Shown piece after piece: positions 49,574 to 61,034 of a stretch of 61,034 nucleotides of DNA. Source of the stretch: Heliocybe sulcata (lineage: Eukaryota > Basidiomycota > Agaricomycetes > Gloeophyllales > Gloeophyllaceae); NCBI GenBank assembly GCA_004369045.1, contig ML213512.1, positions 680,330-741,363 on the forward strand, read 5' to 3'. The notes under the pieces are model-generated. The model saw only the letters and a program-made list of their open reading frames with translations, searched no databases and had not been told where the DNA came from. A program made the position numbers and the translations under genes. How positions within the stretch are numbered: position 1 is the stretch's first letter; every line of letters begins with the position of its first letter.

Positions 49574-50820
49574 AACGTCAGGGACGTGTACTTATACAGC
49601 GGCGATAGGCAAGTGGTTCCTCGCAAGTTCTCCAAATGCTACTTCGACGTCAGTTTTCTTGTTGGAGAAGACGTCCAGCAGTAAGATGATGTTCATCGGG
49701 GGGTGCCGGCACGGTGTGCATAGAGAAGGAGATGCAGCGGATGCACGACTTTGACCAGGGGCTGTTTTCTTGCGTAATGTAACATCAGGAGAACTGTATC
49801 GAACGGCAGTCAATTGCATGAGCGGAGAGTACCTGTCCTCTCCATCAAAATTAGCATACCCCCAAGTCGACTGCGACATAGAGCTCAGACTCGCATAGGC
49901 CACACTCGGCGCCAAGCAGTAAGCGCCCGCCCACTAGTGCCCAACGGGTGAGATCGGCATCAGCTGAGACACAAAGGCCTCGACAACGACTATGTTGGTG
50001 GCACACATCTTGTTCCTCCTTTTTGACTGCCATATCCAGTGTCAATACTCCAGACGGCTTGCTGAAGCAAGGCGACGCTCCCGAGGTACCAGGATTATAG
50101 CTTGACCACGCTTATCGATTTGGAATCTTTAAGGGAATCGATCAGCCACTGAGGCACTCGCATCCGGCGCGTGCTGAAGCGCCTTCTGGGAGCAAGGACT
50201 GTCTAGCACTGGTTGACAAGTTCCTGGCACTGACGACTGGGGCATATCGTTGACCGGTGCGGGCTGAGGTTACTCTGGTCTTGCTGAACAGTGACTGTAG
50301 ATCTCGCTGGTGCGTCTCGAACCCTCCAAGTTGGTTCACGAGTCATATCCAGGCTTTAGCAGATCCGACAATGAAGAGAATATGGGATAGACGAGGATAT
50401 CTGATAGCTCATCTGAGTTCACCAAACTATTATAGCCTCCCGGTGACCAACATACCCGTCGAGCACAGAGCAGGCGACGCATAGTCGTGGCCACTAAACT
50501 GAGCAGTTTCGTGCGTGCGTGTGTTCCTCAAGACCATCGAGGAGGCAGAACTGCAGCGTCGATGTGGAGTAGGTACGTCCGGCCGTCAACTGGAGACCTC
50601 CAGAAATATTGAAGTCCTCCGTGGCCTGGATTATGACGGTCATCTCCATCCAGACTTTGGAGATACATGACAATTTGAGAGTATGGGTGCCGGCCAGCAA
50701 GACGCTAGGATTCTTCGCCTCAAACGAGGTTAGCACTGCACCGGAGGCCGGTTATCATCGGAAGAGTAGTGCAGGGACCATTCCGAGAATGATGAGGCCG
50801 AAGAGGACAGAGTCGTACGG
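48883..50820. repeat. Segmental duplication, copy B, right part
   Basis: Near-continuous match to 10110-12040 of copy A with substitutions and small indels. It is cut at 50820 by the Gypsy element; copy A continues 'gtcgtacgggaaacc' at that point. Confidence 0.9.
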
Positions 50821-52332
50821 TGATACGGCCGATCAGGGTTCTGCGCTCCGAAAACACGTTTTAGGGTTGTTTCGTGATCGCGGCGACATTGCGACTCTAT
50901 TGCACGTTTGCTCGCCGCTGACAGCTCCTTGGAAGGCGAGCGACGACTATACTGGCGACCCCGACTATTCACTCTGGCGGCGAGCCCGCAACTCTATTCC
51001 CCGCAGCGCAGCGACACTCACTCTATTCAGCGGGACTCAATGCAAACCGATCTATTCTGGTCTCGGAGACTATTCTTGGACTCGGCCACAACGACGCGTA
51101 AGCCTCGGCCTCCGGATCTTTCCGATCGAGTCAACGGCAACTCGGCACAACACAGTCCGGTCGGTCCCGAGGAGTCTAGGCCATCGAGTCATTCTAGATC
51201 GGCCATCCCACTCAATGTCCCGCCTGTCATTCCCATCATCGCCTTCGCCGCCCGTCGGGTCGCATGCTCAGGGCGCCCGTACGCATCAACTCACCGCCTC
51301 CATCATCGGTTTCGGCTCCCTCCACGAGACGCATCACTCGCCCGACCCACTACCCCTTTCGGCACAGCCGCGCCGCTCTTCGGCAACTACGCCCGCCACT
51401 CAAGTTACTGTAGCACCGCCGCGTCGACGCAAGGTCTCGTACGGCGTGGCGCGAGGACAAGACTCGTCGCGCGTTTCAAGCTAGGCTACGAGCGTACTCA
51501 TGCAGGCACCACGCCGCGCGGAAACAATAGGATTGGTAGGAAAGTTAGGTACAGGGCGGTTGGGGCGGTGCGCGCCTTGTGGACGAGCGCGCGATGCAGG
51601 AGATGGTTTGCGGGAGACGGTTTTCTCTTCATGTGCGACTGCAAGTAGTGTAGCGGCGATGTTTGTACTTAAACCCTTTCTCTTTGTATCGAAAATGCAA
51701 GTTATCTTCACCCTTCATATCTCGTTCTCGGCGCAAGAGTTTCCTCCAGAGTATAAGGCTTTCGACGGTCTTCCGACTTCAACCAGAGTTTGCGCAAACC
51801 TTCCGACAGCGCGCGCGACAAGTGAGCTCTTTTGTTTCAAAGTTTTCTCTTAAGTCCGGCCTCATGCGCCGCCTGTCTCGTTAACCGCGATCGAGTTGTC
51901 TCGAGTTTTAGAAGCATCGCACATCGCATCGAAGGCATTGTACGCGTGCCTCGATCACATTGTGTAGGCGATCCCGATCCCGCTTCCTCCGAGTCCGTGC
52001 GACAAGCGCGCGCTCCGCGACAGCCCGAGAAGTTATCGCACCAAGAGCGCACCGGGTGCGTTAGAATCGCATCGTCAAGCGGAGTACGATACAAGCGTCT
52101 CCCGAAGTGTGCGTATCGAATTGAGACTGCTGCACGACCGCGACTGGTCTGCGCCAATCTACCTTTAGCCCCATCTATACGTCTTACCCTACCCTATCCC
52201 TCCGAATGTCTATTATACCCTTCATCGCCCCGGACCTCGCAGCCATCTAGCACCAAGGGATTGGTGCTATGCTTTGTGGTTGTTGTTCCCCTTTAGGTCT
52301 GTGCGGGTTTCGTCGCGTGTTAGTGCCTTTCA
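50821..52332 (+). repeat. 5' LTR
   Basis: Begins TGATACGG and ends CTTTCA, 1512 bp. The start is fixed by the repeat at 60878 next to a polypurine tract; the end is fixed by the solo fragment ending at 901 and by the PBS that follows. It contains repeated CTATTC motifs in the first 300 bp. Confidence 0.9.
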
Positions 52333-52334
52333 TT

Positions 52335-52351
52335 TTGGAGCCCACCGCGAG
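52335..52351 (+). other. Primer-binding site
   Basis: TGGAGCCCACCGCGAGG lies 2 nt after the LTR end and starts with TGG, complementary to a tRNA 3' CCA. The matching tRNA was not identified. Confidence 0.6.
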
Positions 52352-52737
52352 GGGGATTTTACAAGACGTCAGGGCACGACGAAGAAGATAGAGAGTCGCT
52401 CCAGAGGCAGTACGAGCGCCAACAGGAAATCCATCGCGAGCTTTGCGAACGCGAGCGCGCCGCCGCAGCAGCTGTAGACGAGGCTTTCCACGCAGCAGTC
52501 TCACTCGCGCGCCGGTTACACCCCGAGCTCTTCTCCGAGACTCAATCCGAACTTTCCTACACCGACTCCGACTCGTCCGACGACGTCCCGCTGGCTGAAC
52601 CAGTTACAGGTCGCCGCTCCGCTCGTATCGCTGCTAGAAACAATCCTATCGCGCAGCCTCCCACATCCGTTTCCCCCACCTCCACGCCAGTCGAGCCTAC
52701 GCCTTCTACCCTCGAGTCCCACACACCCGATCAAGCA

Positions 52738-54978
52738 ATGCCCGACGTCACGTCCCTTCCATCGCGTCGCGACAAGTCCGCGCCCGTCTTCGATCCTGAG
52801 AATCCCCGCTCGCTCCTCCGCTATCTCGAGGATCTCGAGGATTTGTTCAAGTCCCACACGACGCTCATTCAGAACGAGGCTGACAAGAAGCGCGCGGCGG
52901 TCAAATACGTTCCCATGCACGAGGAAGAGATGTGGAAAGGCCTTCCCGAATACGACGACGCTGACAAGTCCTACAATGACTTCGTCGCGGCGCTCAAAAC
53001 CTTGTATCCCGCGGTGCGCGAGGATCAGCACTACTCCGTCGGCGACATGGACAGGCTAGTAGGCGAGCGCATGCGCATCGGCATTCATAACCTCGCCGAT
53101 CTCTCTGCGTTCTATCGCGAATTCCTCCTAATCACCCGCTTCCTTCGTCACCGCGATCTCATCTCCGAGCGCGAGCAGAACCACGCATTTCAGCGCGCGT
53201 TCAACCAGGACCTGTGGACGAAGGTTTTCACGTGCCTCCAGATCAAGAACCCCGATCAGCCCGCTGATATGCCTTACGGTGTCGCGGCTGTGTTCGAGGC
53301 TGCTTCCTTCTTTCTGGCTGGGACGCCCGCCACCACTGTGACCGAAACGAAGACCGAGTCGGCTGAGGCCAAGGTCAAAGTCGAGGAATATACCTCGCTC
53401 GTCGATATCATCACAAAGGCAGTCTCTCAATCGCTCGCGCCCACTCTCGCGGCTATGGTGCAGGGAAGCGCGGCAGCGGCAGCAGCTGGCAACGCGGCAG
53501 CGCGTCCTCCCGCTCCGGCAGCGCCCTATCAGTGCCATTATTGCGGCGCGAACGACCATTCTATCAGGCGATGCCCGCGAGTGGATGAGGATCAGCACGC
53601 AGGACGCGTCAATAGGAATGTAGAAGGCAAGGTAGTGCTTCCGTCAGGTGCGATGGTACCCCAAAGCATGCCTGGCGCGAACATGCGCGATCGGATTATG
53701 GAGTGGCACAGGCGCAATCCATGTCAGACGGCGGCAGCGAACCTCATGGAACAGCTGATCTACGAGGACGTGAAAACAGTCGACGCGCCGCGCGACATTT
53801 TCCAGCTAGACGTAGGAGAGCGCATCGAGTCGCTGGAGCACGAACTTTACGCCTTGCGGTCGCGTCCGACGTTCGACGGTGTCCATATGCCTCCGATCCC
53901 CAAAGTAGACAAAGGCAAGAGGCGCGCAGATCCCCAGCCGGAAGCGTCAGGCTCCTCCGCTACGCCTGCGCCTTCCCCGACTCCTGCACCCCAGCCTTCG
54001 ACCTCCGCCACCAAGCGCGATCCTCCGCCTCACATGACGAACGCGCCCATTCATCCTTACGCCCAAGCGCGTGATGTCAATCGTCCCCGCCAGGCAGCGC
54101 CCAAATCGGTCCGATTCGATACGTCGCAGGAGAAGGTCCCTGATGTCGATGATGCGCGCGCCAAGGAACCAATAGTTTGCGCACAGGCACCCGTCTATGA
54201 TCCCGCTGTATCCGAAGCAGTATTTCACCGGTCGCTCGCGTCTCACAATGTATCGCTTACGTCGGAGGAACTCCTCGCCATTTCCCCAGAGGTGCGCAGC
54301 AAGTATCGCGAGATCATCACCCCGAAGCGCGTACCTGCTACCCCTGAGCGTGTGCAAGCGCAGCTCGAGGAAGTGGCCGACGAGGAGCTCTTGTCTCCCG
54401 CGACATTCCTTCAGTTGGACCTGTCCACATACGGTGCATCTGCGAAGGAGGGCGGCATCATCATTCCCGACCCATTCGAGACCTATCTCAAAGGTTTGGC
54501 GCCCGGCGAAATCCCCCTTCACTTCCACGTTGCGAAAGAATCGCACGCGCTGCACTCGATCGTCGGGTTGATCGACAACAAAGAGAAGGTCGAGGCGATC
54601 CTTGATCCTGGTTCGCAGATCATCGCGGTGTCGGAAAACGTTTGCCTCGCGCTCGGTCTAGCGTTCGATCCGTCGGTCAAGGTTCAAATGCAGTCGGCGA
54701 ACAAAACAGTTGACCTTACGCTCGGTCTCGCGCGCAACGTTCCCTTCCAGGCGGGCTCTATTACGCTCTATCTACAGATGCACGTTGTGCGCGACCCCGC
54801 CTACGATATCCTCCTTGGGTGTCCCTTCGACGTGCTGACGCAGAGCAACGTCAAGAACTTCTTCAACGCGATGCAGACCATCACGATCAGCGATCCAAAC
54901 AGCGAGTTAGTCGCAACTATCCCGACCTATCCTCAAGGCAAGCCGCGCTTTCTCGGCAACACCTTTCGCGGCGAATGA
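52738..54978 (+). CDS. Gag-protease polyprotein of the Gypsy element
   Basis: 746 residues from the first in-frame ATG. The N-terminal 250 residues are a Gag capsid-like helical region (L-R-Y-L-E-D-L-E-D-L-F onward). A zinc knuckle C-H-Y-C-G-A-N-D-H-S-I-R-R-C (CX2CX4HX4C) lies at about 265-278. A Pro/Ser/Thr-rich linker is followed by an aspartic protease with I-L-D-P-G-S-Q-I and the downstream I-L-L-G-C-P-F, the flap and second motif of retropepsins. Pro replaces the usual Ser/Thr of D-S/T-G. The frame stays open upstream to 52324 without an ATG, and the upstream codons look like real protein (Arg/Glu-rich, then acidic, then R-R-S-A-R-I-A-A-R), so the natural start may be earlier or supplied by splicing. 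Confidence 0.9.
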   Translation: MPDVTSLPSRRDKSAPVFDPENPRSLLRYLEDLEDLFKSHTTLIQNEADKKRAAVKYVPMHEEEMWKGLPEYDDADKSYNDFVAALKTLYPAVREDQHYSVGDMDRLVGERMRIGIHNLADLSAFYREFLLITRFLRHRDLISEREQNHAFQRAFNQDLWTKVFTCLQIKNPDQPADMPYGVAAVFEAASFFLAGTPATTVTETKTESAEAKVKVEEYTSLVDIITKAVSQSLAPTLAAMVQGSAAAAAAGNAAARPPAPAAPYQCHYCGANDHSIRRCPRVDEDQHAGRVNRNVEGKVVLPSGAMVPQSMPGANMRDRIMEWHRRNPCQTAAANLMEQLIYEDVKTVDAPRDIFQLDVGERIESLEHELYALRSRPTFDGVHMPPIPKVDKGKRRADPQPEASGSSATPAPSPTPAPQPSTSATKRDPPPHMTNAPIHPYAQARDVNRPRQAAPKSVRFDTSQEKVPDVDDARAKEPIVCAQAPVYDPAVSEAVFHRSLASHNVSLTSEELLAISPEVRSKYREIITPKRVPATPERVQAQLEEVADEELLSPATFLQLDLSTYGASAKEGGIIIPDPFETYLKGLAPGEIPLHFHVAKESHALHSIVGLIDNKEKVEAILDPGSQIIAVSENVCLALGLAFDPSVKVQMQSANKTVDLTLGLARNVPFQAGSITLYLQMHVVRDPAYDILLGCPFDVLTQSNVKNFFNAMQTITISDPNSELVATIPTYPQGKPRFLGNTFRGE

Positions 54979-56584
54979 GCGTTCCGCCACTGGCGCGGAT
55001 AGTCCGTTCGACTCCGACTGGGTCGCAGTCGTCATAGAGGCATCCGAAACCCCTGGCACATTCCACATCTCCTCCACATACCCCATTTCTCTAGACGCGA
55101 GCGCGAGCAAGCTTCCCGACGGACTCCTCCACTCCATATACCTATCAGCATGCGATTCTCCTTCAGTTCAGTCTCTCTATACGTCTTCAGGGTCTCATTG
55201 GGTTCCAGCGCTCGACGAAAAACACAATATACAAAAACATTCCGCCGACTCTCTCGTGTCGGTTCTCGCGGCGACAAAGAAGAAGTACACGCCAGTCGCG
55301 CAAAAGATCCGCGCTGTTCCCGCGACGCTCCCAAAAGAATATCGCATCATACGCAACATCACCGGTGATCCGCTTGCAGACATGCCAACGCTCAGCGCGA
55401 CGCCTAGTCCTTTTGTTCCGACCGGTTGCTACACAGCGGAACATCGCGCGGCGCTACACAAAGTCCATCCGACAGGTTTCCTTAGCAGCGCGGAGCTCGC
55501 GCTGCTCGACGACTTCATGTGCAAGCAAAACGAAGCGTTTGCCTGGAACGATGACGAGTGCGGTCGCTTCCGTACCGACTTCTTCCCTCCCGTCAAATTC
55601 CCAGTTCTCCCTCACACGCCTTGGATCCAGCGCAACATCCCTATCCCGCCTGGAATCTATCCTGAAGTCTGCGCCGTGATCAAGCGCAAAATCGCCGCTG
55701 GCGTCTACGAGCCCTCCAACGCGTCCTATCGCTCGCGCTGGTTCTGCGTCGTCAAGAAGGACGGGAAGTCGCTCCGTCTAGTCCACAGCCTCGAGCCGCT
55801 GAACGCGGTCACCATCCAACATTCAGGTGTTGTTCCGATCCCCGACCATATGGCGGAACAGTTTGCGGGACGCGCTTGCGGTGCGATGCTCGACTTATAT
55901 GTCGGCTACGACGAGCGCGAGATCGCAGAGTCATCGCGCGACCTGACCACCTTCCAAACACCCTTCGGCGCGATGCGCCTAGTCACCCTTCCTATGGGCT
56001 GGAGCAATTCAGTCCCCATCTTTCACGACGACGTTACCGCAATCCTACAGCCCGAAATCCCCGAACACACCATCCCCTACATCGACGACGTTCCAGTGAA
56101 AGGCCCACCGACGCGCTATGAACAACCCGACGGCTCGCAAGAGACCATTCCAGAAAACCCCAACATCAGGCGCTTTGTGTGGGAGCACTTCCAGACGCTC
56201 AACTGCGTGGTGCAGCGCATGCGCTACTGCGGCGGTACGTTCTCGGGCTTGAAGCTGACAGTATGCGGACCAGAAATCATCGTCATCGGGCATCGCTGCA
56301 CATACGAAGGACGAATCGCCGACGAATCGTGCGTCGCGGTCATCCGCAACTGGGGTCCGTGCAAGTCGCTTTCGGAAGTGCGCGCATTCTTAGGTACCGT
56401 CGGACTCCTGCGCATCTTCATCAAAAACTTCGGTCACCGCGCGGACGCGCTAGTCAAGCTCACCCGCAAAGACATGCCCTTCGAATGGGGCCCTGAACAA
56501 GAGCTCGCGCAGGCGGACCTGAAGCAAGCGCCCCTCGAGAGCCCCGCGCTACGTCCTATCGATTACACCTCTTCTTTGCCGTAG
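54911..56584 (+). CDS. Reverse transcriptase part of Pol
   Basis: Open in the +1 frame relative to Gag-protease from 54911, overlapping its end by 68 nt; there is no ATG near the start, so expression would need a frameshift or is lost. The RT begins with T-x-P-Y/W-I-Q-R-N-I-P-I-P-P-G, followed by the fingers K-I-A-A-G-V-Y-E-P-S-N-A-S-Y-R-S-R-W. The catalytic Asp is in M-L-D-L-Y, then F-Q-T-P-F-G-A-M-R, L-P-M-G-W-S-N-S and the active-site Y-I-D-D. The thumb region F-L-G-T-V-G-L-L-R-I-F-I-K-N-F is intact. The frame stops at 56582-56584, at the junction with RNase H, where a single base appears to be missing. Confidence 0.92.
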   Translation, partial: SQLSRPILKASRAFSATPFAANERSATGADSPFDSDWVAVVIEASETPGTFHISSTYPISLDASASKLPDGLLHSIYLSACDSPSVQSLYTSSGSHWVPALDEKHNIQKHSADSLVSVLAATKKKYTPVAQKIRAVPATLPKEYRIIRNITGDPLADMPTLSATPSPFVPTGCYTAEHRAALHKVHPTGFLSSAELALLDDFMCKQNEAFAWNDDECGRFRTDFFPPVKFPVLPHTPWIQRNIPIPPGIYPEVCAVIKRKIAAGVYEPSNASYRSRWFCVVKKDGKSLRLVHSLEPLNAVTIQHSGVVPIPDHMAEQFAGRACGAMLDLYVGYDEREIAESSRDLTTFQTPFGAMRLVTLPMGWSNSVPIFHDDVTAILQPEIPEHTIPYIDDVPVKGPPTRYEQPDGSQETIPENPNIRRFVWEHFQTLNCVVQRMRYCGGTFSGLKLTVCGPEIIVIGHRCTYEGRIADESCVAVIRNWGPCKSLSEVRAFLGTVGLLRIFIKNFGHRADALVKLTRKDMPFEWGPEQELAQADLKQAPLESPALRPIDYTSSLP

Positions 56585-57708
56585 TGCTCGCGGTTGACAC
56601 ATCATTTATCGCAGTGGGTTATTACCTTTGCCAACAGTCGGTGCTCGATGCAAAAGCCCGCCACTACAGCCGCTTCGGGTCAATCACACTCAATGACCGC
56701 GAGCGCCGCTTCTCGCAGCCGAAGTTAGAGATCTACGGTCTGTTCCGCAGTCTGCGTGCGCTTCGACTCTACCTCCTTGGCGTACGCAATCTCGTCGTGG
56801 AGGTCGACACGCGTTACATCAAGGGTATGTTGCAAAACCCCGACATCGTGCCATCGGCCAGCATCAACCGCTGGATCGTCTCCATCCTCACCTTCCACTT
56901 CACGCTCGTGCACATCCCCGGCGCAAAGCACGGCCCTGATGGTCTATCGCGCCGTCCGCCTCAGCCTGACGATCCGCCGCAGGATGACGACCCCGACTTC
57001 GATGATTGGATCGATCACCTACATGGGTTCATCCACTTCATCAATCCCGTTGCATATCTCGAGTCTCCCAGCAACCTTGCAGTCTTTGCGCAGGATCTAG
57101 CGGACGCGAGTGACCACAGCAACCACTCCATCGACGCAGACGATGACGATCTCTCATACGCCGACTTCCCTCGCTCCGACAGCGCGCGCCAACTCGACCA
57201 GCATCTGGCGCTACTGCCCGCGTGGTTTGAGATGCTTGCGCGCCCCGACGAGATACCAGAACCCAAGTACGCAGGCTTTGTCAAATACGCGACAGAGTTC
57301 TTCGCGAGTGGCGGGCGATTGTGGAAGAAGAACGCGCAAGGTGCGCACCGACTGGTGCTCCTTCCAGACTCGCGACTAGAGGCTCTGCGCGCATGTCATG
57401 ATTGCGTCGGACATTGCGGGATCTTCGCGACCAAGGCGCTCCTCCTCGAACGCTTCTGGTGGCCTTTCTGTGTGCAAGACGCCGCTTGGTATGTCAAGAG
57501 CTGCCACCTCTGCCAGCAGCGGCAGTCACGCCTAGTCCTCATTCCTCCTACTGTTGCGACGCCCGCTCCGTTATTCTCCAAGGTCCACATCGACACCATG
57601 CACCTACCACCGTCGGGCGGCTTCCACTACATCGTCCAGGCGCGCTGCGTCCTCACATTCTACCCCGAAGCGAAGAAGTTACGCGCCGAGAACGCCCATG
57701 ATCAGTGA
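56584..57708 (+). CDS. RNase H and N-terminal integrase part of Pol
   Basis: Continues Pol in another frame without its own ATG. RNase H has V-L-A-V-D-T-S-F-I-A-V-G-Y-Y (Asp), Q-P-K-L-E-I-Y-G-L (Glu) and V-E-V-D-T-R-Y-I (Asp), then H-I-P-G-A-K-H-G-P-D-G-L-S-R. The integrase zinc finger is H-D-C-V-G-H...C-H-L-C (HHCC), with the first catalytic Asp in H-I-D-T-M-H-L-P-P. It ends at a TGA at 57706-57708, a second frame break. About 90 acidic residues (D-D-D-D-L, D-D-P-D-F-D-D-W) link RNase H and integrase. Confidence 0.88.
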   Translation: MLAVDTSFIAVGYYLCQQSVLDAKARHYSRFGSITLNDRERRFSQPKLEIYGLFRSLRALRLYLLGVRNLVVEVDTRYIKGMLQNPDIVPSASINRWIVSILTFHFTLVHIPGAKHGPDGLSRRPPQPDDPPQDDDPDFDDWIDHLHGFIHFINPVAYLESPSNLAVFAQDLADASDHSNHSIDADDDDLSYADFPRSDSARQLDQHLALLPAWFEMLARPDEIPEPKYAGFVKYATEFFASGGRLWKKNAQGAHRLVLLPDSRLEALRACHDCVGHCGIFATKALLLERFWWPFCVQDAAWYVKSCHLCQQRQSRLVLIPPTVATPAPLFSKVHIDTMHLPPSGGFHYIVQARCVLTFYPEAKKLRAENAHDQ

Positions 57709-58549
57709 CTGGCTTTACGAAGATATCCTCTGCCGCTGGGGCGGACTCGCGGAGATAGTCACGGACAACGGCAAGCCTTTCATAGCCGCGATGGACTACC
57801 TATCAAAGAAGTTTGGCATCCGCCACATTCGCATCAGCGGCTACAACTCGCGCGCCAACGGCGTCGTCGAGCGCCCTCATTTCGATGTCCGACAAGCTCT
57901 ATTCAAAGCGGTGGACGGCGACGCGAAGCGATGGTCCCAGGTATTCCATTCAGTCTTGTGGTTGGAATGCATTATGATCAGACGGCGTATGGGGTGTTCC
58001 CCCTACTTCGCTGTGACTGGCATGCATCCCCTAATTCTGCTAGACATCGTCGAGGCGACCTATCTCCAACCACCGCCCGACTCCCTCCTATCCTCCACCG
58101 ATCTCATCGCTCGGCGCGCAATCGCTCTGCAGAAGCGCGATGATCAAGTCGAACGCCTCCACTCGCGCGTCCTCCAACATCGCATAGAAGCAGCCAAGCG
58201 ATTCGAGCGCGAGCATTCCCACACCATACGCGATTTCAACTTCAAGCGCGGCGACCTCGTACTCATGCGGAACACAGCAATCGAGAAGTCCCTCAACCGC
58301 AAGATGCATGTGTGCTACCTAGGCCCGCTCATCGTCGTGTCGCGCAATCGCGGCGGCGCATACATCCTCGCCGAGCTCGACGGCACTCTCTTCGACAGGC
58401 CTACCGCCGCCTTCCGCGTCATCCCCTACTTAGCGCGCAAGACTATTCCACTGCCCGAAGATTTCACCGATGTCGGCGCCACTCAAGTTCAGCGCATGGC
58501 GGAGCGCGATGACCACGGCGACGAAGACGCGCTCGAACCAGATGAATAA
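57700..58549 (+). CDS. Catalytic and C-terminal integrase part of Pol
   Basis: Resumes the RT frame near 57700 and is open to 58549; the first in-frame ATG (M-I-S-D-W-L) lies inside what would be the continuous domain. It has the second Asp in I-V-T-D-N-G-K-P-F and the Glu in N-G-V-V-E-R-P-H-F-D-V-R, completing the D,D-35-E triad. The C-terminal part has R-G-D-L-V-L-M-R and the GPY/F-like module Y-L-G-P-L-I-V-V-S-R-N. No chromodomain follows. Confidence 0.88.
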
Positions 58550-58680: not shown

Positions 58681-58720
58681 AGAACTGGGGACAGTTCCAT
58701 TTTCAAGTCCGGGGGAGGGG
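58681..58720 (+). other. Upstream copy of the PPT region (PPT1)
   Basis: GAACTGGGGACAGTTCCATT plus TTCAAGTCCGGGGGAGGGG, 130 bp after the end of pol. It nearly repeats 60841-60877, which directly precedes the 3' LTR. In a Gypsy element of ordinary layout the LTR would follow here. Confidence 0.75.
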
Positions 58721-58930
58721 ACCACTGTCCAACCTGTGCGCACATACATTTTTTTCATTTTTTCGATGTTTCTCTTCGCGTTCCAGATCCGCTATGTTTG
58801 ACTTTGAGGCTTGCGACGTCATATATTTAACAGACATTCTTTCCATTTTGTGCGAGAGCGGACAAGTTCAGATTTCATTTGTTTCAGTCTGCGACATTTT
58901 TCTATGTACAAGTATGCAAAACCGTTTTAT

Positions 58931-60771
58931 CTAGAGAGCGCCAGCGGGCGCATTGTCCCTCTCCTCCGCAGGGCCCTTTGGGCCGATATGCGCTTCCTTC
59001 CCCAAGCAGTGCGCGCTCGCCTCATCCTCCTCCCCGTCGCTCTCCGCCTCCGCATCCTCGTTGCACTCGAACTCCGCCGCAATCACGCTGCTATCGTGCG
59101 ACCTCGCGCGACGCTCCGACCATGGGCGACGAATCAAGCTCGCCTCGGAGCGCAGAGTCTGCGAAGGACCCTGACCCACAAGCGACAGCGGCTGCACCGC
59201 GGACTCGAGCTCCTGCAGTCGCGCGCGGTTCGCATCAACCGCCTTGGCGGCCTCGCTGATCTCTGCGAAGGGCGCGTCAGTTGCCAAGTCACCACCCCCA
59301 AGTCTCGGCACGTACCTTCGCCCAGGTCCTCCTCGAGTTCGAAGATCCGGGTCTCCAGAACGCCACGGACCTGCTCGATGCGCGCGCGCAAGGATGCGTT
59401 CTCCTTCTGCTGGGCGGCCATCCACTCTCTGATCATTTTCACGTGGTACTCGGTGTTCGACTGGCGCGCCTCTTGATTGGTCGCGCGGAACTCGACGTCG
59501 ACGACGCGGTCAAGCGCAGACCTGGCATTGGTCGCGGTGGGCAGAGGCGGACTGCCAGCGCGCAACAACGCGAAGGGCTCCGCTTGCCCGTCGGCACCGT
59601 AAACCCACGTACCCGGCACTGAAGAGCGTCAGCAGATGCACTAAGCATAATGAGCAGTGGCGTACCTGGTCCCTCTACGCGCGCGGCCTTCTTCGGACGA
59701 CTTTCGACATCGACCGGCGCGGCCCTCTTCTCTCCCGCGTCCTTCCGAGTGCCTTGCGCACCCACCACAGGTCCGGCACCAGCCTTCGAACCAGACAGGC
59801 CCGGCGCGTTGTCGACCGCAGTCCCCTTCAGGCGTCGAACCTTGTATTCGACCTCGGTGGCGCGGCGTTGCCGCTCAGACTCGGGACGAGGCGGCACGTC
59901 CACGAAGACGGTCGGCGACGGCGCGCGACCCCCTGTTTGATCAAGCGTCAGTAACTGCGTGACTCTGTGAAAAGGACACCACTTACCACAAGCACCCTCC
60001 TTGCGCGCGCTGCCCACCTCCTGCTTCTTCGTATCCTTCGCGCCCGCACTCTTCGCACCCTCATCGGAGTTGGAACACCCCTTGCGCGCAAAGTTGCACG
60101 CGAGACACGAGGAGTTGGGCTTCGCACCAGCCCGCAACCAACAGGTGGTCCCCCTCGCTTGGCAGCACTCACACTACCCAAGAGTCAATACGAGCGCAGA
60201 CTAAACAACCACCGAATGTGCTTACCGGGGGAAAGAGCTGCTCGCCGGGCTCGATGATGCGCCCCGGGCGATGTTTTGCCCCTGTCGCGGGACCCTTGCC
60301 TTTGCCGTCGCGACTTCCTTCCTCCACCTCCTTCCCTTTCCCCTCCTTCTTGCGACCTTCGTCAACCACATCCTCCTCCGACTCGGGCGCGTTGGGCTTT
60401 TTCGCAGACAGCCGAGGGATGAGAAGCTCCACCTCATCGTCAGAAGCCACGCCGGAGTCAACGAGGGCCCACGGCAGGTTCGGGTGCGCGCGGCGGAGTG
60501 CGTCCACGACCGCCTCTGGCAGGAACTCGACGCTCGACTGCGCGAACTCCCACTCAGCAGCGGCGAGGATGGACGCGCCCAACGTCGGCTCAGGCTACAT
60601 CAAACAGGTGTCAGCGTGAAGGACGACGGGCGGCGGAAAAACACTTACAATCATACGACTGAGGCGGTGCTGCACCGCGTGAGCATCCAACTGGTCGGCC
60701 TTGAGCGCGGTACCGAGCTCGCTGATCGAAGCGCGGATGGACTTGGAGAGCTGGCGGGCCTGGTTGGACAT
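58931..60771 (-). CDS. Antisense Zn2Cys6-type protein encoded between pol and 3' LTR
   Basis: Six exons (minus): 60771-60649, 60594-60226, 60173-59987, 59932-59666, 59618-59316, 59262-58931. They give 526 residues with all joins in frame and introns of 47-54 nt with GT/AG ends in the antisense direction. The N-terminus is M-S-N-Q-A-R-Q-L-S-K-S-I-R. After an acidic Lys/Glu-rich region, the third exon encodes Cys165, 168, 175, 187, 190 and 197, i.e. C-X2-C-X6-C-X11-C-X2-C-X6-C, the spacing of fungal Zn2Cys6 binuclear clusters (an extra Cys167 is present). Next comes a basic segment (R-P-K-K-A-A-R), a coiled coil at about 355-435 (E-N-A-S-L-R-A-R-I-E-Q-V) and an acidic tail (E-A-E-S-D-G-E-E-D-E-A). 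This layout would fit a nuclear DNA-binding regulator, but function is inferred only from the motif. It starts 107 bp before the 3' LTR, so the LTR could act as its promoter. Confidence 0.8.
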
Positions 60772-60840
60772 GGTCGAACAAGCGACGGAGGCTGGCGTAG
60801 GCGACGAAGATGGGCGGAAAGTGAGCGGGTGATGGCGCTG

Positions 60841-60877
60841 CGAACTGAGGACAGTTCGATTTTAAGTCCGGGGGAGG
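60841..60877 (+). other. Polypurine tract next to the 3' LTR (PPT2)
   Basis: CGGGGGAGG directly before TGATACGG, the LTR start; primes plus-strand synthesis. The same ~40 bp occur at 58681-58720. Confidence 0.85.
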
Positions 60878-61034
60878 TGATACGGCCGATCAGGGTTCTG
60901 CGCTCCGAAAATGTGTTTTAGGGTTGTTTCGTGATCGCGGCGACATTGCGACTCTATTGCACGTTTGCTCGCCGCTGACAGCTCCTTGGAAGGCGAGCGA
61001 CGACTATACTGGCGACCCCGACTATTCACTCTGG
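60878..61034 (+). repeat. 3' LTR, first 157 bp
   Basis: Identical to 50821-50977 except for three clustered differences (AACACG against AATGTG). Cut by the window end. Confidence 0.95.

Follow-up and report, generated by a model that had tools for sequence, protein, structure and literature searches.

What is a gene with five introns doing on the antisense strand of a retrotransposon? The question is raised by a 61,034-nucleotide stretch of the basidiomycete Heliocybe sulcata (contig ML213512.1, positions 680,330 to 741,363), hereafter the window, in whose numbering positions are given unless a contig is named. Between pol and the 3' long terminal repeat (LTR) of a Gypsy element, the interval 58681-60877 runs from one polypurine-tract (PPT)-like repeat to a second, and a minus-strand coding span fills 58931-60771. 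A first-pass annotation, made from the letters alone, had read this span as a spliced gene for a Zn2Cys6 DNA-binding protein. Our follow-up establishes how the gene is built, that it recurs in two element lineages and in a copy lacking pol, and that one pair of copies has been under purifying selection. The reading that we favour, and consider somewhat probable, is that this is the element's own accessory gene, encoding a zinc-cluster-type protein that probably regulates the element.

An intron-containing gene antisense to gag-pol

The splice model of the first-pass annotation was reproduced exactly: on the minus strand, six exons join into 526 codons plus a stop, and all five introns, 47-54 nt in length, begin with GT and end with AG. 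Exon 1 (60649..60771) opens with the ATG at 60771 and measures 123 nt, as it does in homologues on contigs C5, C32 and C6. Past intron 1 (60595..60648; phase 0, 54 nt), exon 2 (60226..60594) carries a conserved LPW motif near codon 81. Intron 2 (60174..60225; phase 0, 52 nt) abuts the first cysteine codon of a zinc-cluster-like motif, a place that it also holds in the C27, C6, C5 and C32 lineages and, by inspection, in a copy on C9. The motif itself, CX2CX6CX11CX2CX6C, lies in exon 3 (59987..60173) at codons 165-197 (60075..60173). After intron 3 (59933..59986; phase 1, 54 nt) comes the basic exon 4 (59666..59932), ending in a KR..P..K motif common to the homologues; intron 4 (59619..59665; phase 1, 47 nt) leads to exon 5 (59316..59618), with a probable coiled coil, and intron 5 (59263..59315; phase 1, 53 nt) to exon 6 (58931..59262), with the end of the coiled coil, an acidic tail and the stop.

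The predicted protein has its six cysteines, as had been claimed, at zinc-cluster spacing (residues 165, 168, 175, 187, 190 and 197); an extra cysteine at 167 is arginine in the C27 copy. The basic stretches and the acidic tail that had been noted are present too, the latter with 11 Asp or Glu in residues 476-500. The coiled coil, part of the same description, came through less firmly, from a crude heptad count and a match to PF08702 over residues 356-442 that stays below threshold (E 0.0036; 17.9 bits, cut-off 29.9).

The gene occupies the space between the two PPT-like repeats, with gag-pol on one side and the 3' LTR on the other, and its start codon is 107 nt from the LTR edge. With a frame antisense to gag-pol, in the region between pol and the 3' LTR and in several copies and lineages, it belongs by position to the class of antisense genes called aORF-3R.

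Homologues inside and outside Gypsy elements

A DNA search of the genome (51 contigs totalling 31.6 Mb) turned up a single other full copy, at C27:74449-76647, 95% identical to the window copy (called C10 in pair comparisons). It retains GT and AG at all five introns and differs at 87 of 1581 exon bases with 0 gaps, the gaps between the pair being confined to two of the five introns (3 nt apiece) and the 3' flank. Short matches on C32 and C5 belong to a second Gypsy lineage and are its PPT copies; between them a homologous antisense gene lies in the same slot and on the same strand as the window gene. The antisense gene is present in two copies of the element and in this second lineage. A third homologue, at C6:1128800-1130274, has five intact exons encoding 423 amino acids and no exon 6, its frame stopping at the end of exon 5.

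The window protein is 92% identical to that of C27, 40-41% to that of C6 and 24-30% to the pieces on C5 and C32. Its intron phases (0, 0, 1, 1, 1) agree wherever they can be read, namely in C6 introns 1-4, C5 introns 3-5 and C32 introns 1-2. The homologues and conserved splice sites exclude a chance reading frame.

The C6 homologue is a candidate for domestication: PPT2 and about 35 nt of an LTR-like start are all that is left around it, and no gag-pol match was found in 24 kb. Together with the intact exons, this would fit a host gene sourced from copies of the element, whose present function is on the host's side. We consider that very improbable as an account of this copy, which is single and might instead be a recent, truncated insertion from a family otherwise absent.

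The two Gypsy lineages resemble each other far more in gag-pol than in this gene. Between the window and C32 elements, amino acid identity is 72% in gag, 88% in reverse transcriptase, 78% in RNase H-integrase and 85% in the C part of integrase; DNA identity is 74% up to position 58764, 46 nt past the first PPT-like repeat (PPT1), after which similarity is lost, to return at the second (PPT2). Judged from these alignments, either the antisense gene would have evolved several-fold faster than pol or the PPT-to-PPT segment would have been exchanged. In both lineages (window; C5 and C32), two PPT copies flank the antisense gene, and the inner one may prime the synthesis of plus-strand DNA or mark a joint left by recombination.

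Protein queries from C6 and C5, and their finds, led to five further loci: C9, C48, C5 at 719 kb, C1 at 2266 kb, and C35. C9 (1113239-1115999) is 94% identical to C48 (33002-35732) over at least 2.76 kb, and C1 (2265200-2270451) 96% identical to C5 (715600-720825) over at least 5.2 kb; these stretches are therefore dispersed repeats too. Around each of the five loci, 6.2-9 kb were read without a match to gag or pol of the window lineage. Integrase matches across the genome number at least 38, and none lies close to these loci; on C5 the nearest is about 40 kb off. On the opposite strand of both repeat kinds an uncharacterised gene faces the family gene, with 67-68% nucleotide identity between the kinds. 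Four open reading frames (ORFs) that neighbour the copies on C9, C1, C48 and C35 were scanned against Pfam; the single match above cut-off is a fungal protein kinase next to C35. Beyond this genome, a scan of viral_contigs with A2 yielded 68 pattern stretches, 0 of which were confirmed as relatives.

The gene could then be a passenger, a host gene of a mobile or fast-duplicating family that a Gypsy lineage captured and that is useless to the element. The five loci without visible Gypsy gag-pol speak for it, as do the PPT1-PPT2 cassettes, which lack DNA similarity between lineages that are 74% identical in gag-pol as far as 58764 and match again at PPT2, the pattern of a swapped cassette. Against it, recent inert cargo would not be expected to keep its position and strand, its flanking repeats and its intron phases alike in two lineages. 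Taking selection (below) into account as well, we regard this as unlikely, if the most serious of the alternatives.

An apparently swapped zinc cluster

In Zn2Cys6 proteins the cysteines are spaced CX2CX6CX5-16CX2CX6-8C. The family has this spacing, with CX2CX6CX11CX2CX6C invariant in 10 of 10 aligned segments (two rows being identical). The claim of a Zn2Cys6 domain therefore stands as regards the cysteines; as a canonical Zn_clus domain it does not. Ordinary Zn_clus identity can be set aside for the window protein, of which neither the full length nor the isolated segment matches PF00172, and none of the family segments scanned has a colinear match to that model above cut-off.

What the relatives do match is the two halves of the model in the other order. 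PF00172 finds 7 of 10 family members at E<=10. Scanned singly, 7 of 8 segments match (a set that omits the window copy, which has no match, and one of the two identical rows), and the best stretch of all seven is in swapped register, residues 3-18 falling on model positions 18-34 or residues 24-37 on positions 1-14. Three segments reach the cut-off of 21 bits, those of C9 (22.4), C5 at 719 kb (21.5) and C1 (22.1), none of them Gypsy-borne; those of C27 and C6 score only E 1.3 and 0.77, and the C5/C32 segment gave no match. Compared with the Protein Data Bank (PDB), the family profile picked out LEU3 (E 0.014) through two short stretches whose order is reversed (family 25-36 on LEU3 5-16, family 3-17 on LEU3 25-39), each weak alone; the next matches were unrelated ribonucleases at E 0.2. 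The single window sequence gave two matches only, both unrelated (E 0.31 and 0.38).

From these comparisons the domain is apparently a zinc cluster whose halves are swapped relative to GAL4 and LEU3. As in the Zn2Cys6 factors (PF00172; LEU3, GAL4), there are two CX2CX6C units and each half resembles one canonical half; unlike in LEU3 and GAL4, the first half corresponds to model positions 18-34 and the second to 1-14, with the basic residues between the fifth and sixth cysteines. Canonical clusters begin with the basic half, and the canonical PF00172 matches in this genome are colinear over model positions 1-36. For the Gypsy-borne copies, assignment to the swapped cluster would follow from homology to their better-scoring relatives (C6 query to C9, E 0.0058; C9 query to C32, E 0.014) and shared architecture.

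Searching the H. sulcata genome itself with PF00172 put none of the 59 matches listed at the family loci. Segments from three of the loci nevertheless pass the cut-off when scanned alone, and so this search does not speak for absence. Many of the genome's Zn_clus matches are confined to the model's second half (about 12-38), for example on C14 (25867), C19 (302164) and C12 (426769), and some of these half-model matches may be further swapped-half clusters. Among open-licence papers, searches for circularly permuted zinc clusters brought up ordinary Zn2Cys6 papers, and none of those listed uses the term "circularly permuted".

Purifying selection between the C10 and C27 copies

The C10 and C27 exons are separated by 42 synonymous and 45 nonsynonymous changes (dS 0.118, dN 0.039, raw ratio 0.33). 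Because CpG and transition bias inflate the raw signal, we built a null in which the 87 changes are reassigned among sites with the same trinucleotide context. Under this null, 44 nonsynonymous changes were seen where 56.7 (sd 4.0) were expected (P=0.0026; 0.0014 with stops counted), and dN/dS is about 0.5 once that expectation is allowed for. Four of five control frames showed no deficit (P 0.76-0.98). Since pol pieces of the same pair have raw ratios of 0.18-0.33, constraint on the gene is of the same order as on pol. The expectation of a dN/dS below 1 between element copies was thus borne out in this pair; it was not in C5/C32, a pair that cannot be told from neutral. Over the long term, constraint is indicated by the cysteines, intron phases and architecture.

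This bears on a further possibility, that the antisense RNA is what matters, pairing with the sense transcript and feeding RNA silencing, with the frame secondary. Such transcripts are discussed as regulators for other elements in passages of PMC7264820. We consider it improbable here: constraint acts at the level of codons, and the six cysteines are kept at 24-41% protein identity, so a protein is needed. For a passenger, the purifying signal in C10/C27 is again unexpected, and its lack in C5/C32 speaks in favour.

Several results count against an accessory gene for a zinc-cluster-type protein. In C5/C32 exons 3-6, 33 changes carry no purifying signal (P 0.32; 0.29 with stops counted; raw ratio 0.51, no gaps in 1275 bases), and both gene copies are damaged, that of C5 by a frameshift in exon 2 and that of C32 by a nested insertion in intron 2 and an intron 5 donor reading GG instead of GT. 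Within C10/C27, the remaining control frame (frame 1, opposite strand) has a weak deficit of its own (P 0.043; 0.034 with stops counted). Introns of this pair differ less (9/257) than exons (87/1581), and synonymous sites are therefore no simple neutral clock. In some 3.3 kb, pol has three gaps that shift the frame; the 0 indels in the exons are still within chance (about 1.4 expected). As to the domain, no Pfam family matches the segment of the window protein at E<=10, PF00172 is missing from the full protein, and the AlphaFold2 model of exon 3 alone (62 amino acids, one sequence) was poor, with a pLDDT of 61.8.

The element and its target sites

That the gene lies inside a Gypsy retrotransposon was confirmed: the element has two LTRs with TG and CA ends, a target-site duplication and, in Ty3 order on the plus strand, gag, protease, reverse transcriptase, RNase H and integrase domains. 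The duplication ACGG stands at 50817..50820, its second copy adjoining the end of the 3' LTR, outside the window. The 5' LTR (50821..52332, plus strand) is 97.6% (248 nt) and 98.1% (159 nt) identical to the readable parts of the 3' LTR. On its 3' side, a stretch beginning with TGG (52336..52353, plus strand, sequence inspected) is, by convention, what we take to be the primer-binding site. The gag ORF, 746 amino acids with a retropepsin-like protease domain (52738..54978; PF13975 and PF13650 above cut-off), is followed by pol in three frames: a 442-amino-acid ORF with reverse transcriptase (55256..56584; PF00078 at E 4e-4, below cut-off, 87.6% identical to the C32 element), a part with RNase H and the zinc-binding domain of integrase (56584..57708; PF17917, PF17921) and, shifted again in the window copy, the C-terminal part of integrase (57554..58549), which has no Pfam match of its own. 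Relative to C27, pol contains three internal gaps, of 1, 2 and 1 nt. PPT1 (58682..58718, plus strand) contains AAGTCCGGGGGAGG and is 92% identical over 37 nt to PPT2 (60842..60877, plus strand), which lies immediately 5' of the 3' LTR; the first part of that LTR (60878..61034, plus strand) runs on past the window end.

At least 41 LTR matches are present genome-wide, with 40 of 158 candidates scored. Among 20 three-prime LTR flanks read (L073-L092), one was a primer-binding site, leaving 19 target sites, seen by their 3' flanks only. Sixteen have the form N-CG-N, against a background of 6.7% per site for CpG in the window (binomial P about 1e-16), and the remaining three (CCAC, CCAG and GTGC) fit CpG decay. 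A narrower target, CGG/CCG, was unsupported (10 of the 16 N-CG-N sites, background 0.42, P 0.078), leaving CpG alone. In the second lineage, the C5 element has ACGG on both sides, which fits N-CG-N, and the C32 element CTGG and CCGG.

Known antisense genes and a possible mechanism

Antisense ORFs between pol and the 3' LTR include gene23 of Grande, RIRE2, PvRetro13 and Boty of Botrytis, a fungal example, according to passages of PMC7264820. The window gene shares their place and strand; they are kept in most copies of a family, and some have nuclear or DNA-related features. It differs in its five introns and zinc-cluster-type domain. Passages of PMC11963269 describe the Retand lineage, likewise Gypsy, with a long region between pol and the 3' LTR and antisense TRP28 proteins that are predicted to bind DNA and for which a regulatory role is proposed; Retand elements are from plants and their domain is TRP28, and neither "intron" nor "zinc finger" occurs in the passages searched. 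In HBZ of HTLV-1 and its APH relatives, as parts of PMC3185765 set out, a spliced antisense transcript from the 3' LTR encodes a coiled-coil bZIP protein that represses the 5' LTR. The window gene resembles these as an antisense gene predicted to be spliced and to encode a transcription-factor-type protein with a probable coiled coil. HBZ belongs to a human retrovirus and has a bZIP rather than a zinc cluster, and the analogy is functional only, with no common descent implied.

An element regulator would work as follows. Given a start codon 107 nt from the LTR edge, antisense transcription would start in or beside the 3' LTR, around PPT2. Introns could persist since the sense genomic RNA has them as reverse complements, hidden from the spliceosome, so that they should survive reverse transcription. 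The protein, with a zinc-cluster-type DNA-binding domain, probable dimerising coiled coil and acidic tail, would enter the nucleus and bind the LTR or nearby sites. There it might tune sense transcription, by a repression that limits damage or by activation, or help integration. By analogy with the systems above, a protein that is predicted to be made from the LTR and to bind DNA, that probably dimerises and that ends in an acidic tail is in our view most readily seen as regulating the element.

A bolder picture is possible, and we offer it tentatively: a Gypsy lineage with an HBZ-like self-regulator, a spliced antisense factor with a circularly permuted zinc cluster that would be fast-evolving and exchanged from PPT to PPT, found in unrelated dispersed repeats too and once left behind as a stand-alone gene. 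The factor might also take part in target choice of an element that inserts at N-CG-N.

Antisense genes in LTR elements are already known, and reviews call their roles undetermined. Judged against the open-licence literature, a spliced zinc-cluster-type one is a new variant: we found no report of such a gene in an LTR element in open-licence papers, which does not establish its absence from print. The window gene offers a direct test of whether a retroelement regulates itself through an antisense factor, with a recognisable DNA-binding-type domain, introns that date antisense expression, graded homologues in one genome and a fungal host amenable to genetics. If confirmed, the swapped-half zinc cluster would also add a new arrangement to a DNA-binding domain that is among the commonest in fungi.
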